Assembly (NCBI RefSeq): GCF_005937185.1
Contig: NZ_VCNI01000001.1
Location: forward strand, 1,236,657 to 1,300,656
Reading direction: 5' to 3'
Length of the DNA stretch: 64,000 nt
Source of the DNA: Flagellimonas algicola
GTDB taxonomy: Bacteria > Bacteroidota > Bacteroidia > Flavobacteriales > Flavobacteriaceae
This document shows, piece after piece, positions 1-6,103 of this stretch (position 1 is the first letter of the stretch; each line of letters begins with the position of its first letter). The notes below the pieces were generated by a model. It ran no database searches. It was given only the letters and a program-made list of their open reading frames with translations, and was not told the DNA's origin. The position numbers were made by a program, and so were the translations under genes.

Positions 1-2339
1 AAGGGTTCTTGCAACTGTTGTTGTGATACTTTGGTCGCATCAATTTTCGTGCGGTCCATTTCGGGAAGCGTGCTGAAAAATTCCCAATTTTCTCTCTCTT
101 TTTCCATTTTGGACGGGTTGGCATTCATAACCAAAGCCTTTACTGGACAAGCGTCCACACAATTATTGCAGGATGTGCATTGTTCAGGATTTACTTGAAC
201 CGTGTAATTGAGCAAATCCATTCCTTCCAGTTCCTCTAAAAATGGAATGGGCCTAAATCTTTGAGGTGCGTCTTTTAAATGGTCAACCTCATAAGCCTTT
301 ATCCGCATTGCTCCTTGCGGACAGGCCATGCTACACGCACCACATTGCGTGCAAAGGTCGGTATCCCATATGGGGATTCCCTCTTTGGGATTTCTAACAA
401 TATAGTTTGATGATCCACTTTCATAAGTCCCATCCACTGGCAGCATGCTTGTAGGAAGCTCGTTCCCGCGTCCCGCTAAAAGGCTACCTAAAAGTGTTTT
501 GGCAAATTCTTCGTCTTCCTGGATAAATGCATACGCTTCAGTCGTGTCTTCAGTGGTATCCACTTGTACAAGACTATCCTTCAGTTCCATTGAAAACAAG
601 CTGCTGGGAAAATCTTTTTTAATGGCAAGATGACACGCATGTAGCGCGGAGATTGTATATCCATTTACCATAAAGTTGGTAGGTAGTACTTTTAAATCAA
701 TCAAGTATACTGCTACATTCTTCTCTTGGATTCGATGTCGTAATTTTGAAGGAAGGTCCGCCCAAAAGGACTCTGGTGAAAGCTCTGAATTCACAAGCAA
801 GGTTCCTCCCCGGGCAATCCGCTGAAGTACATTATCTGACTTTAAAAATTGTATTGAATCGCAGGCAGCGAAGTCGGCATCCTGAATCAGGTAGGGAGCT
901 TTAATCCTATGTTCTGACATACGTAAATTGGAAACACTCCTAGAACTTGATTTTTTATAATCACATTCGGTGTATCCCTGAATATAAGCATCTGTGCAAC
1001 TGCCCAGCAGCCTCATAGTTGAATTAAAATACACGGGGGTATCTGCACTCTTAGTTTCGTAAAACAAGGCTTGATCATATTTTCCCCGGATTTGCATTTC
1101 TTCATTGATCACAAGACTTGTATGGGTAACATCATCGGTTATTCCGACGGTAAAATTGTTTTTTGGTTTCCCGCATTTTAAGTTATTCACTATGGCTTTG
1201 ACCATGGAGGGTGTAAATTCCTTGGAACTAAGACCATAACGTCCACCTACCACTTTTGGGATTGTATTAAATTTGGTTCCCAAGGATTGGACCACAGATT
1301 GAAGCACATCCAAATACAGGGGTTCCCCCGTTGCACCTGATTCCTTGGTGCGATCCAGAACAGCGATAGCTTTGCAACTATCAGGAAGGCTCTGGATCAA
1401 ATGTTTGGTGCTAAAAGGCCTAAAAAGGCGCACTTTTACCAATCCTATTTTTTCCCCTTGGGCATTTAATTGGTTAATGGTTTCCTCCAGGGTTTCCGCG
1501 GCTGAAGCCATGGCAACAACCACTTGTTCTGCTTCTGGATGGCTTACATAATCAAATAAGCGATAATGCCTTCCTGTTAGTTTTGCAAATTCGTCCATTT
1601 GATCCTGAACAATTTGGGGGCAAGCGTCGTAATAAGGGTTAACGGCTTCCCTACTTTGAAAGAAAACATCAGGCCCTTGTGAAGTTCCCCGCACAAATGG
1701 ATTGTTGGGGTTGAGCGCCCTTTTCTTATGGGCACCAATAAGTTTTTTATTAATCATGTTATGAATCACATGATCATTGATCTTTTCAATTCTGGAGGTT
1801 TCATGCGAGGTTCTAAACCCGTCAAAAAAGTGAACAAAAGGAATTCTTGAAGCCAAGGTTGCGGCTTGTGCAATCAGCGCAAAGTCCATGGCCTCCTGCA
1901 CGGATGCAGATCCTAAAAAGGCATAGCCCGTATTACGTGCCGCCATGATATCACTGTGGTCTCCAAAAACCGATAAAGCATGAGTAGCCACCGATCTCGT
2001 AGCCACATGGATGACATTGGGTGTCAATTCACCCGCAATTTTATACATATTGGGCATCATGAGTAGAAGACCCTGTGATGCCGTGAAAGTCGTGGATAGC
2101 GAACCAGTTTGTAATGCTCCGTGCATGGCTCCAGCAACTCCACCCTCACTTTGCATTTCAATGATGGAAGGAACACCTCCAAAAATATTCTCCTGACCAT
2201 CTGCACTCCAAGCTTCTAACAATTCGGACATTTCCGAAGCCGGAGTAATGGGATAAATGGCACAAACCTCATTAAGCCGATAAGCCACATGTGCTGTAGC
2301 TTGATTACCATTTACGATGATGTGTTGCTGTTCTTTCAT
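1..2339 (-). CDS. nifJ: Pyruvate:ferredoxin (flavodoxin) oxidoreductase, N-terminal 779 residues
   Basis: Translating the minus strand from ATG 2339-2337 gives an open frame to the window edge with no stop, so the gene is cut by the window. It begins with the 2-oxoacid oxidoreductase domain I (YPITPASEMSE, residues about 30-40), continues through domain II and the gamma domain, and near its visible end carries two ferredoxin-type 4Fe-4S motifs, CTQCGACSMACP and CTSCNNCVDACP. The C-terminal TPP domain is off the edge; the family is about 1150-1200 residues. It interconverts pyruvate plus CoA with acetyl-CoA, CO2 and reduced ferredoxin in the cytoplasm. It lies 79 bp downstream of osmC in the same direction, past a hairpin terminator. 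It could be another 2-oxoacid:acceptor oxidoreductase, but the single-chain order is that of NifJ. Confidence 0.93.
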   Translation of the reverse strand, partial: MKEQQHIIVNGNQATAHVAYRLNEVCAIYPITPASEMSELLEAWSADGQENIFGGVPSIIEMQSEGGVAGAMHGALQTGSLSTTFTASQGLLLMMPNMYKIAGELTPNVIHVATRSVATHALSVFGDHSDIMAARNTGYAFLGSASVQEAMDFALIAQAATLASRIPFVHFFDGFRTSHETSRIEKINDHVIHNMINKKLIGAHKKRALNPNNPFVRGTSQGPDVFFQSREAVNPYYDACPQIVQDQMDEFAKLTGRHYRLFDYVSHPEAEQVVVAMASAAETLEETINQLNAQGEKIGLVKVRLFRPFSTKHLIQSLPDSCKAIAVLDRTKESGATGEPLYLDVLQSVVQSLGTKFNTIPKVVGGRYGLSSKEFTPSMVKAIVNNLKCGKPKNNFTVGITDDVTHTSLVINEEMQIRGKYDQALFYETKSADTPVYFNSTMRLLGSCTDAYIQGYTECDYKKSSSRSVSNLRMSEHRIKAPYLIQDADFAACDSIQFLKSDNVLQRIARGGTLLVNSELSPESFWADLPSKLRHRIQEKNVAVYLIDLKVLPTNFMVNGYTISALHACHLAIKKDFPSSLFSMELKDSLVQVDTTEDTTEAYAFIQEDEEFAKTLLGSLLAGRGNELPTSMLPVDGTYESGSSNYIVRNPKEGIPIWDTDLCTQCGACSMACPQGAMRIKAYEVDHLKDAPQRFRPIPFLEELEGMDLLNYTVQVNPEQCTSCNNCVDACPVKALVMNANPSKMEKERENWEFFSTLPEMDRTKIDATKVSQQQLQEP

Positions 2340-2384: not shown

Positions 2385-2411
2385 AACAAGCCGCCACAGG
2401 GGCGGCTTGTT
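2385..2411 (-). terminator. Rho-independent terminator after osmC
   Basis: Arms AACAAGCCGCC (2385-2395) and GGCGGCTTGTT (2401-2411) pair perfectly over 11 bp with a 5-nt loop. On the minus strand the stem is followed by CAATTTTT. It sits 6 bp past the osmC stop, so transcription of nifJ needs readthrough or a promoter of its own. Confidence 0.8.
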
Positions 2412-2417
2412 TCAGTC

Positions 2418-2969
2418 TTACTTTACGAACTCGATGGAAACTGGAGTTGGATTGCTGATGATGTCAAACACTGGAGAGAATTGGGCCAAGGCTCTCAATT
2501 GCTCTTCGGAAGCATCAGATTTCACTTTGAACTTAACGGTAATACCGTCATATCCTTTTCTAATTTCTGGATCTAATCCTAGAAATCCTTGCAAATCAAT
2601 TCCACCTTCCAAGGTAGATTCCATTCCCTCAATGTCAATGTCGTTTGCAGCGGCGTGATAAGTCATTGCAGCTGTTAAACAAGAACCTAGCGCATGAAGT
2701 ACCACTTCCACAGGGGTTGCAGCTTTGTCTTCACCTAAAAGAACACTTGGATGGTCGCATTCCATAGTAAAAGTCTCTTGTCTTGTAGTGTCTTCTTGTC
2801 CAACACCGTAAAATCCTTTTGCACTGGTTACACAATGTCCTCCTGTGATCCAATTGTTCTTGGCCCGAAACTCGAACTTGGCCAATTCAGGATTTCCTTG
2901 AACTGCATTGATAGTGTCTACCAATTGATCTACGTTTACTCCGTTTTTCATGTTTGCTGTTGTAATCAT
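2418..2969 (-). CDS. OsmC family peroxiredoxin-like protein
   Basis: 183 residues. The core HPSVLLGEDKAATPVE followed by ALGSCLT is the signature of the OsmC/Ohr fold. C71 (MECDHP) and C97 (GSCLT) are the likely peroxidatic/resolving thiol pair; C46 is an extra cysteine. The family reduces organic hydroperoxides in the cytoplasm using thiols. No signal peptide is seen. The start ATG at 2969 follows an A/T-rich leader. A sigma-54-type promoter and an inverted repeat lie directly upstream, and the next gene upstream encodes a sigma-54 activator, so this gene is its probable target. OsmC versus Ohr subfamily is not certain. Confidence 0.9.
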   Translation of the reverse strand: MITTANMKNGVNVDQLVDTINAVQGNPELAKFEFRAKNNWITGGHCVTSAKGFYGVGQEDTTRQETFTMECDHPSVLLGEDKAATPVEVVLHALGSCLTAAMTYHAAANDIDIEGMESTLEGGIDLQGFLGLDPEIRKGYDGITVKFKVKSDASEEQLRALAQFSPVFDIISNPTPVSIEFVK

Positions 2970-3012
2970 TTTTTTAAATTTTAAAGATTTCTAATTGTTT
3001 TGCCATTAGAGA

Positions 3013-3028
3013 TGCATTTGGCGTGCCA
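3013..3028 (-). promoter_or_regulatory. Sigma-54 (-24/-12) promoter of osmC
   Basis: The minus strand reads TGGCACGCCAAATGCA. The known sigma-54 consensus is TGGCACG-N4-TTGCA/T, so there is one mismatch. First G of GG to G of GC is 12 nt, the exact -24/-12 spacing. The predicted start of transcription is near 3002, giving a leader of about 30 nt before the osmC ATG. Confidence 0.78.
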
Positions 3029-3087
3029 AAAAATATAACTACCTTATTATCAATTGATTACAACAATTTATAAAGAATACACCTATC

Positions 3088-3117
3088 ACGATATTTCGCT
3101 TATTTACGAAATATCGT
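3088..3117. promoter_or_regulatory. Inverted repeat, probable upstream activating site of the sigma-54 activator
   Basis: ACGATATTTCG (3088-3098), an 8-nt spacer and CGAAATATCGT (3107-3117) form a perfect 11-bp inverted repeat. A further half-site like it, TGAAATCTCGT, lies at 3128-3138. The repeat sits 60-100 bp upstream of the -24/-12 promoter, where enhancer-binding proteins normally bind. Confidence 0.7.
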
Positions 3118-3143
3118 TAAGATAATTATGAAATCTCGTGAAT

Positions 3144-5000
3144 TTAGACGGGCCTAGTTATTCCTAGTGCCTTAATTTTGGAAGTAAGGGTTGTAGGGCG
3201 CAATCCCAACAACATAGCGGCACCTTTTTCTCCGGATATTTTCCAATTGGTTTTTCGCAAAGCCCTTAAAATATTTTCCTTTTCCATAGCAACCCACTCT
3301 TGAGAAGTAAATATGTAATCCACCTCCGTCTCTGAGTTTATGGATTGTTCCTTCGTTGGATTTGGAATGATACTCTCCCAGTCAACCTGACCATTTTGTG
3401 ACACAATTATGGCGCGCTCCACCAAGTTCTGTAATTCGCGGACATTTCCAGGCCAAACATAATCAAGAAAGAGCTTTTCTTGCTCTTTGGTAAGTAGGTC
3501 AATTTCCTTGTTCAATTTCGCACTGTATTGCCCCATAATCTGGTTAGCTATCAAACACACATCCGATCCCCGATCCCGTAAGGCCGGGACTTGGATAGGA
3601 AATACATTGAGCCGATAGAACAAATCCTCCCTAAATTTCCCTTCCATGGAGAATTTCAGTAAGTCCCTGTGTGTCGCGGCTATAATTCGTACATCCACCT
3701 TTACCGTATCCGAACTCCCTACTGGATCAAATTCACCTTCTTGAATTACTCTTAGCAATTTGGGCTGAAGCGCAAGTGGCAACTCCCCAATCTCATCCAA
3801 AAAGATTGTGCCTTTGTCCGCCAATAAGAATCGACCTTTCCTAGTTGCGGTGGCTCCAGTAAATGCGCCTTTTTCGTGACCAAAAAGTTCACTTTCTATG
3901 AGATTTTCAGGAATGGCTCCGCAATTGATCCGAATCAACGGTTTTTCATTACGGTCACTGGCCATATGAATGGCCCGAGCCACCAACTCTTTACCTGTTC
4001 CAGTCTCACCTTGGATCAAAACAGTGGCTCCCGTATGCGCCACTTGTTCTATCAAGTCCAACACTTTTTTCATGGACCTGTGCTTGGCTATAATGCCATA
4101 ACCACTGGTCAGTTCTTTTATCTCTTCCTGTAAATACTGCGTCTGGGTCGTCAGGGAATTAATTTTGCTTTCCGCTTGTAATCGCTCATCTATATTTCTA
4201 AGGATAAGGGTGTAGAACGATTTTTTTTCGTTGCCGTATCTACTTATGGTGCCTTCGTTAAGGGTTGCGGTTTCCTTAGAACCAATCACCTTGACCACCT
4301 TGGGCAGATAGGTGTTCATACTTTTCCCTTCACCATCCAAATCCTCAGTTACCAATCGTTCCAACAGATGTGCGCTTTCTTCATCCATAAAAAACAGGAT
4401 GTTCCGCTGGATGACATCTTCATTTTCCAATATTTCCTTGGCGGAGGCATTAGCCAGTAGTATCCTGAAATTACTATCGAACATGATTATGGCGTCCATG
4501 GCACCATTGATCAGGCCCAGCATTTTGGAATTAGCCAATTCCAAATCCCTTTTGGACACCGTCAACCGTTCCTGAATAATATCAAGTTCTCTATGCCTTT
4601 TGATCAAAACGGACAAAATCCCTTGGGCAAATCCTCTATCTGCTGTTATCAATTCCACAAAATGGGTGGTCCCAATCTTCAGCAAGGTGGTTTCTTCCAT
4701 TGCTGTAACCGAAGCGGAGCGGGGCTCATCATCTATTAGCGCATACTCACCAAAACAATCCGATTGTGACAGGGTAATATAAAGATGGTCTTTGTCGTGC
4801 ACTTTTACCTTCCCTTCACAAATGACATACATGGCATCCCCAACATCCCCTTTCTGGATAATGCAGTCATTTTTTTCATAATGTTCCTTTGTGAGATTTT
4901 TACAGAGCTGCAGCAATGAAGATTTACCAACTTCTGAAAAGAAAGTCACCTTTTTCAGGAAATCTACCCATTGCTGTTGATTTAGATTTGAATCGGTCAT
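3144..5000 (-). CDS. Sigma-54 dependent transcriptional activator with CNB, PAS, AAA+ and Fis domains
   Basis: 618 residues. A cyclic-nucleotide-binding/CRP-like effector domain covers about residues 15-125 (GDVGDAMYVI, FGEYALID). A PAS domain covers about 158-270, and a short coiled segment leads to the AAA+ module: Walker A GETGTGKE at 331, the sigma-54 contact loop GAFTGA at 378 and Walker B IFLDEIGE at 399. The C-terminus has a Fis-type helix-turn-helix. It should open sigma-54 promoters with ATP hydrolysis in response to a signal sensed by the CNB and/or PAS domain. There is no receiver domain. It lies in tandem upstream of osmC, whose promoter is of sigma-54 type. The ligand is unknown. 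Confidence 0.93.
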   Translation of the reverse strand: MTDSNLNQQQWVDFLKKVTFFSEVGKSSLLQLCKNLTKEHYEKNDCIIQKGDVGDAMYVICEGKVKVHDKDHLYITLSQSDCFGEYALIDDEPRSASVTAMEETTLLKIGTTHFVELITADRGFAQGILSVLIKRHRELDIIQERLTVSKRDLELANSKMLGLINGAMDAIIMFDSNFRILLANASAKEILENEDVIQRNILFFMDEESAHLLERLVTEDLDGEGKSMNTYLPKVVKVIGSKETATLNEGTISRYGNEKKSFYTLILRNIDERLQAESKINSLTTQTQYLQEEIKELTSGYGIIAKHRSMKKVLDLIEQVAHTGATVLIQGETGTGKELVARAIHMASDRNEKPLIRINCGAIPENLIESELFGHEKGAFTGATATRKGRFLLADKGTIFLDEIGELPLALQPKLLRVIQEGEFDPVGSSDTVKVDVRIIAATHRDLLKFSMEGKFREDLFYRLNVFPIQVPALRDRGSDVCLIANQIMGQYSAKLNKEIDLLTKEQEKLFLDYVWPGNVRELQNLVERAIIVSQNGQVDWESIIPNPTKEQSINSETEVDYIFTSQEWVAMEKENILRALRKTNWKISGEKGAAMLLGLRPTTLTSKIKALGITRPV

Positions 5001-5164: not shown

Positions 5165-6103
5165 ATGACCATTACCCAATTGCAATATGTCCTAGCAGTT
5201 GCAGAGCACAAAAATTTCACCCTGGCCGCCGAAAAGAGTTATGTTACCCAACCTACTTTGAGCATGCAGGTCCAGAAATTGGAGGATGAGTTGGATATTT
5301 TGATTTTTGACCGAGGTAAAAAGCCTATAACCATCACCGAAGTGGGGCAAAAAATTGTGGCCCAAGCCAAAAACATTGTCGCTGAAGCCGAGCGCATCAA
5401 GGATATTGTAGATCAGGATAAGGGTTTTATAGGCGGGGATTATACCATAGGGATCATACCAACGGTAATGCCCACTTTGCTTCCCATGTTCCTGAATACT
5501 TTTATTAAAAAATACCCCAAAGTCAACTTGATCATAAAGGAGCAACCCACAGAGGCCTTGATTCGGAATATATTGGATGGCCATTTGGATGCGGGAATTG
5601 CGGCAACACCCCTTGAAATTGAATTTATCAAAGAACGTCCATTGTATTATGAACCTTTTGTAGGTTACGTCCCCAGTAATCACCGTTTGGCAGGTCACAA
5701 AGAATTGGGCACGGAGGATTTGGATGTCAACGATATACTACTCCTCCAGGATGGACACTGTTTTAGGGATGGAGTCATCAATTTATGTAAAACACCTAAA
5801 AACCTAGAGGACGAACATTTTAAAATTGAAAGTGGAAGTTTTGAAACACTGGTAAGTCTTTCGGATGAAGGTATGGGGATGACCTTGCTGCCTTACCTGA
5901 ATACGTTGGAACTTGATACAAAAAAGGTACAGCAGCTACGACCGTTCAAAAATCCTTCGCCAGCTAGGGAAATTAGTTTAATTTACCACAAAAGTGAATT
6001 GAAGATTCAAATAACGGAGGCTCTGAAAGAGGTAATCTCCAGTATTGTAAAAGGAGCAATCGCTTTTCAGGATGTAAAAATCATAAGTCCGTTGGCGAAG
6101 TAA
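5165..6103 (+). CDS. oxyR: Hydrogen-peroxide sensing LysR-type regulator OxyR
   Basis: 312 residues with an N-terminal LysR helix-turn-helix (about 1-60) and a LysR substrate-binding domain. The segment DGHCFRDGVINLC places cysteines at 199 and 208, the same numbers as the disulfide switch cysteines of E. coli OxyR. This makes the OxyR assignment firm rather than a generic LysR call. It is transcribed divergently from the sigma-54 activator across 164 bp. Known family members activate peroxide defence genes when oxidised; msrA, the OsmC genes and trxB in this window are plausible but unproven targets. A hairpin terminator follows the stop. Confidence 0.95.
   Translation: MTITQLQYVLAVAEHKNFTLAAEKSYVTQPTLSMQVQKLEDELDILIFDRGKKPITITEVGQKIVAQAKNIVAEAERIKDIVDQDKGFIGGDYTIGIIPTVMPTLLPMFLNTFIKKYPKVNLIIKEQPTEALIRNILDGHLDAGIAATPLEIEFIKERPLYYEPFVGYVPSNHRLAGHKELGTEDLDVNDILLLQDGHCFRDGVINLCKTPKNLEDEHFKIESGSFETLVSLSDEGMGMTLLPYLNTLELDTKKVQQLRPFKNPSPAREISLIYHKSELKIQITEALKEVISSIVKGAIAFQDVKIISPLAK

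Follow-up and report, generated by a model that had tools for sequence, protein, structure and literature searches.

In Escherichia coli, the three enhancer sites through which NorR acts on norVW are essential and scaffold the activator hexamer (PMC2941729). The table of a 2020 review sorts the sensors of sigma-54 activators (bEBPs) into RR/PRD, PAS/V4R/ACT and GAF types, or none, and includes no CNB domain (PMC7175178). Within the Flavobacteriaceae, the passages on motif SM4 in a study of Flavobacterium psychrophilum give experimental support for -24/-12 promoters (PMC9723704).

Here, these systems are compared with a locus of Flagellimonas algicola, a member of the same family, in a stretch of 64,000 nucleotides (the window). 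An earlier note, made from the sequence alone, had placed a sigma-54 promoter and a palindromic enhancer in front of osmC, next to their activator, and proposed a self-contained peroxide/redox switch that might extend to nifJ. The element at osmC is confirmed as real, and is stronger than first described. Judged from sequence, positions 3013-3139 are likely to form the regulatory region of a sigma-54 switch that is gated by a cyclic nucleotide, drives osmC and is attenuated into nifJ. The features of the locus are:

1-2339, minus strand: nifJ, pyruvate:ferredoxin (flavodoxin) oxidoreductase; the 5' 779 of 1153 codons, continuing left of the window
2386-2410, minus strand: terminator-like hairpin in the osmC-nifJ gap; 25-nt stem-loop with a T-run shortly after
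2418-2969, minus strand: osmC, 183-aa OsmC-family protein; C46 and C97 invariant, S165 at the resolving-Cys position
3013-3028, minus strand: sigma-54 -24/-12 promoter TGGCACG-N4-ATGCA; pattern and profile match, predicted start near 3002
3048-3060: IHF-like box between enhancer and promoter; perfect WATCAANNNNTTR on the window's plus strand
3088-3099, minus strand: putative activator site C, GCGAAATATCGT
3106-3117, minus strand: putative activator site B, ACGATATTTCGT
3128-3139, minus strand: putative activator site A, the distal dyad, ACGAGATTTCAT
3144-5000, minus strand: sigma-54 activator, 618 aa; CNB 39-119, PAS about 163-220, AAA+ with GAFTGA 303-470, Fis HTH 572-611
5165-6103, plus strand: OxyR-like LysR regulator, transcribed divergently from the activator gene; a neighbour, at most a candidate member of the circuit

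Architecture of the osmC control region

A sigma-54 promoter was defined by GG and GC doublets spaced by 10 nt in TGGCAYR-N4-TTGCW. At 3028-3013, the minus strand has TGGCACG-CCAA-ATGCA, with the canonical 10-nt gap from GG to GC, so the exact spacing reported in the earlier note holds. Between this site and the osmC ATG (2969-2967) lie 43 nt. The GG and GC are invariant across 15 aligned modules, and rpoN, whose presence had been named as a check on the proposal, is encoded in the genome (PF04552, E 2e-51).

Elsewhere in the genome (C8:224526-224597, minus strand; L219), a sigma-54-like promoter with an AT-rich upstream box, but without dyads, precedes an OmpH/Skp-like gene and lies downstream of a BamA-like gene. 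This promoter is probably served by a different activator (envelope stress).

Upstream of the osmC promoter, the perfect 11-bp inverted repeat with its 8-nt spacer (3088-3098 and 3107-3117) and the third half-site (3130-3141; 12 nt, 92%) are all located where the earlier note had them. The letters stand; the unit does not. The reading as an 11-bp half-site palindrome with a stray half-site was rejected in favor of three tandem copies of a 12-bp dyad, ACGANATNTCGT, because relatives keep three 12-bp dyads at fixed steps. The inverted repeat equals sites B and C, and the third half-site corresponds to site A. Start to start, the steps are 22 bp from A to B and 18 bp from B to C, and 59 nt separate the enhancer from the promoter downstream of it. 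The three dyads, the 22/18-bp steps and the 59 nt from C to TGGC recur almost without exception in 13 further genomes, with activators of 64-69% identity to the window's. The position of site A is kept in 14 of 15 aligned modules and is displaced by a few bases in the remaining one (L132). As dyads upstream of the promoter, the three are putative binding sites of the kind expected of a bEBP enhancer.

The box between enhancer and promoter was scored against the E. coli IHF consensus. Relatives carry an IHF-like box at a fixed -20 from TGG (6 perfect and 5 one-mismatch copies among 15 aligned modules), on the strand opposite to that of the window's own perfect match. IHF or HU protein may bind at 3048-3060.

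Distribution of the control module

Two profiles of the module were used: R1, covering the whole 134-bp element, and R2, from which both own-genome sequences were left out. With R1, the genome contains two full modules only, the osmC site and C1:727510-727640; R2 still recovers both (E 8.4e-24 for the window, 1.6e-19 for the second). The second module (L102 1500-1630, minus strand; L183) has all three dyads at the same spacing as at osmC. It precedes the gene for a protein of 409 aa whose start resembles a signal peptide and for which neither a family nor a structure match was found. That the activator regulates itself through the module was rejected, as the genome contains only these two full modules.

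The intergenic region is short and AT-rich, a setting in which a palindrome and a -24/-12 match might coincide by chance. The genome-wide motif search proposed in the earlier note bears on this: the pattern TGGCACGNNNNWTGCW has a single exact match in the 4.54-Mb genome, the osmC site at 3013-3028 (TGGCACGCCAAATGCA), and the palindrome, allowing up to 3 mismatches, occurs in two places only. The three-site score sum is 25/27, against a best of 16-19 in each of 20 Markov-simulated 64-kb windows. Together with the R2 score and the spacing conserved in relatives, this rarity rules out a chance match, the probability of which is negligible.

At a threshold of E < 1e-11, a full module is present in 28 of 249 family genomes. 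All 28 have one copy before osmC, and nifJ is the next gene after osmC in 27. The motifs and their exact spacing are thus kept in relatives with the same gene order, where their loss would have spoken against the earlier proposal.

The dyads could serve another regulator, such as a different sigma-54 activator, the OxyR-like LysR protein or a repressor, with the adjacency of the CNB activator incidental. The genome does encode five strong sigma-54 activators, one adjoining the osmC promoter and four elsewhere. Against this, the activator, the osmC-type OsmC and the module are found in an identical set of 16 among 149 family genomes sampled alike, unlinked loci included (hypergeometric P about 8e-22, assuming independent genomes; such co-occurrence probabilities overstate independence because the genomes are related, and this one, which ignores kinship, is a guide only). 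No genome was found to retain this OsmC without the activator, which limits the comparison. The module remains with osmC even when the activator lies apart from it or on a different contig (G011, G222, G059). The geometry of the dyads is also rigid relative to the sigma-54 promoter. A different regulator is therefore very unlikely. Conservation and exact co-occurrence instead support the earlier proposal that the adjacent CNB-PAS-AAA-Fis activator uses the sigma-54 promoter and its enhancer, here with three sites, and this is very likely.

In one of the unlinked cases (G011; L186, end of contig C25), the activator is separated from osmC and followed by a module copy. Beyond this copy, close to where the contig stops, are a tiny ORF and transposase-like sequence; osmC, with a module of its own, begins another contig. 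Among 296 genomes sampled across the phylum, the full-length activator was found in Flavobacteriaceae only.

The activator and its sensor domains

The activator gene ends just upstream of the enhancer, and the CNB-PAS-AAA-Fis order described in the earlier note was matched domain by domain. The AAA+ domain (PF00158, E 6e-73) has GETGTGKE and GAFTGA invariant across 16 activators. The Fis-type HTH falls at the edge of detection (HTH_8, E 1.5e-4; 21.9 bits against a cut-off of 22) and is seen in all 16 relatives. The PAS domain is weak, with a PAS_9 match in 15 of 16 activators (best 2e-5).

The CNB domain (PF00027, E 1e-19) was examined for a phosphate-binding cassette of the form FGE..AL-x-RxAS/T. 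In the cassette, FGEYALIDDEPRSAS, residues G84, E85, R94, S95, A96 and S97 are invariant in 16/16 activators (FGEYA ... RSAS). The closest solved CNB structures are PKG and PKA chains (cGMP- and cAMP-dependent kinases). Neither the AAA+ relatives obtained from public genomes nor the genome's other activators have a CNB domain; a search of public genome contigs with the whole activator returned AAA+-domain relatives only, most of them from other phyla and all lacking CNB. A literature search for CNB together with the sigma-54 interaction domain found nothing relevant.

Linked cyclases and the input signal

Just beyond the left edge of the window, nifJ is followed, after a gap of 32 nt, by a gene on its own strand for a 496-aa membrane-type class III cyclase (C1:1234012-1235502; PF00211, E 2.7e-25). 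Its metal-binding Asp motifs are FTDLVGFT and GDALAVMF. Of the base-specificity residues, the Lys is present in SKIVGD, and the second position is a non-canonical Arg (YRALGD). Adjoining this gene, and convergent with the osmC-nifJ-cyclase cluster, is one for a TPR-histidine kinase-receiver-class III cyclase (L184 1950-5000). This fusion is kept in many relatives and is a possible phosphorelay-to-cyclic-nucleotide converter.

In 26 of the 28 module genomes, a PF00211 gene and the module are no more than 6.5 kb apart, where about 0.3 would be expected by chance (these genomes have a mean of 3.6 PF00211 cyclases), and the additional modules of G154 and G240 are likewise near a cyclase. Activator genomes all contain a cyclase (16/16), as compared to 73/133 of the others (P 1.4e-4). 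The nearest cyclases show three architectures, so the linked cyclase is not a single orthologue: a 677-aa TPR type, usually divergent from the activator, and, after nifJ, a convergent kinase-receiver type and the membrane type. A literature search on cAMP signalling in Bacteroidetes found nothing relevant.

Given the linkage and the presence of cyclases in activator genomes, cyclic-nucleotide control is the best-supported candidate input; a cyclic nucleotide is probably what the activator senses. This probable input, with its cyclase, was overlooked in the earlier note.

Alternatively, the PAS domain (binding a redox, flavin, heme or small-ligand signal) or a partner protein could be the sensor, and the CNB domain could be structural or bind otherwise. 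The promoter, enhancer and activator would then be unchanged, and the cyclases linked for another reason. Cyclic-nucleotide binding can be lost from CNB domains, or replaced by the sensing of something else. The PAS_9 match recurs in nearly all of the activators, and G145 and G148 have no cyclase within 6.5 kb although the activator is present. In G425, from another family of the class, a PAS-AAA-Fis relative (L250 8562-10469) has a GAF-type-looking N-terminus replacing CNB, so a PAS-AAA-Fis protein can work with another sensor. About 3 kb away is a similar operator-like stretch (L250 5471-5572) with two dyad-like copies, an IHF-like box and TGGCATG. Comparison of the G425 and flavobacterial proteins suggests sensor exchange on a common PAS-AAA-Fis body. 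Sensing through PAS or a partner is nevertheless rather unlikely, as the phosphate-binding cassette is invariant and the cyclase linkage far exceeds expectation; gating by a cyclic nucleotide is the preferred reading. The G425 operator-like site lies between sulfur amino-acid lyase-like and decarboxylase-like genes.

Outputs of the switch

The osmC product belongs to the OsmC fold family (PF02566, E 8e-13; 2OPL, E 8e-45). Its cysteines were compared with the classical pair of E. coli OsmC. The peroxidatic position is kept (C97), the resolving position is Ser (S165) in 28/28, and an additional cysteine, C46, within GGHC, is invariant. Since the protein lacks the peroxidatic-resolving pair, classical two-Cys peroxidase chemistry is not to be assumed. 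C46 could have a new role, in resolving or in carrying sulfur.

Readthrough into nifJ, raised as a possibility in the earlier note, would have to cross the hairpin, which 25 of 26 osmC-nifJ gaps in relatives contain, usually along with a T-run. The main product should therefore be osmC, and nifJ should need readthrough or its own start.

Among the targets and neighbours of the module in relatives, an AhpC/TSA lipoprotein occurs together with a DsbD_N-like protein (G154, G219, G240), and a TauE/SafE exporter is found in G169 and G219. In G148, a gene for an ArsM-like methyltransferase precedes those for a DsbD_N-like protein, homocysteine methyltransferase and DsrE. Genes after nifJ encode a SoxA/TsdA-type cytochrome, a weakly TetH-like protein and DsrE. 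These genes suggest a shared thiol/sulfur redox theme.

The self-contained, peroxide-responsive switch for osmC of the earlier note has to be weighed here. Membership of the OsmC family and the AhpC/TSA-family lipoprotein among the targets are in its favor, and the main hint of peroxide is the OxyR-like gene divergent from the activator, present in 7 genomes (the window's and 6 others), with a Dps-like gene in 5. Set against these are the Ser at the resolving position of OsmC and the DsbD_N, TauE, DsrE and SoxA/TsdA-type targets and neighbours, which point to thiol/sulfur redox and leave peroxide unproven. Nor is the switch self-contained: a second full target exists in the genome and others in relatives, and the likely input, the neighbouring cyclase, is outside the window. 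The switch as first drawn is thus distinctly improbable, and peroxide is an unlikely candidate for the primary signal. A cyclic-nucleotide-gated switch with a thiol/sulfur theme is preferred.

Proposed mechanism

Sequence and comparison establish the predicted promoter, the three sites and their spacing, their conservation, the activator domains, the cyclase linkage and the terminator. The proposed sequence of events is as follows. Dimers of the CNB-PAS-AAA-Fis activator would occupy dyads A, B and C, and the array, by analogy with NorR, would scaffold the activator hexamer. A bend of the IHF/HU type near 3048-3060 could bring the hexamer to Esigma54 at 3013-3028. The class III cyclase of the same locus would supply the ligand, cAMP or cGMP, and the CNB domain, perhaps with PAS, would release the AAA+ ring, if the effect is positive. 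The resulting open complex would lead to strong osmC transcription and, through the terminator, to weaker transcription of nifJ and, in this genome, of the cyclase 32 nt beyond.

A broader proposal is evenly balanced between right and wrong: that these proteins form an uncatalogued class of cyclic-mononucleotide-gated sigma-54 activators, cyclase-wired and acting from three dyads, for an OsmC/PFOR thiol-sulfur response in Flavobacteriaceae, in which the nifJ-following cyclase may be co-transcribed and provide positive feedback.

Comparison with described systems

Targets or signals are known for few sigma-54 activators of Bacteroidota, and the papers found do not describe a role for class III cyclases in flavobacteria. 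The locus brings together a defined promoter and operator array, a named activator and a candidate enzyme for the second messenger, making both questions testable in one tractable strain. If the proposal is true, cyclic-nucleotide control joins the ways of switching sigma-54 activators.

Proteins of the CRP type operate at sigma-70-type promoters, with no AAA+ ring involved. The system resembles CyaC-Clr of S. meliloti (CRP/Clr with a class III adenylate cyclase; PMC10463352) in that a cyclase's nucleotide would act on a CNB-domain regulator, and differs in that CNB is here fused to a sigma-54 activator. With DmpR, XylR, NifA and FhlA (groups 2/3; PMC7175178) it shares an N-terminal ligand sensor that would control a clade-6 AAA+ ring; the sensors tabulated there do not include the CNB of the osmC activator.

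The F. psychrophilum study describes -24/-12 promoters in the same family, with activators predicted from PF00158, whereas its passages searched contain no enhancer sites, CNB activator or osmC (PMC9723704). For the OsmC protein, the nearest solved relative is 2OPL, deposited as a hypothetical protein, which aligns with residues 6-179 and keeps the C97 position, but is without the C46 that is invariant in the flavobacterial group.

The likeness to NorR extends to the AAA+ domain with GAFTGA, the Fis-type HTH, three upstream sites per sigma-54 promoter and an activator gene beside its target. In contrast, NorR senses NO by GAF, and the osmC activator carries CNB-PAS; the osmC system also has its own site sequence, its own 22/18-bp steps and a linked cyclase. 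New relative to known bEBPs are the sensor, the cyclase linkage and the fixed three-site array.
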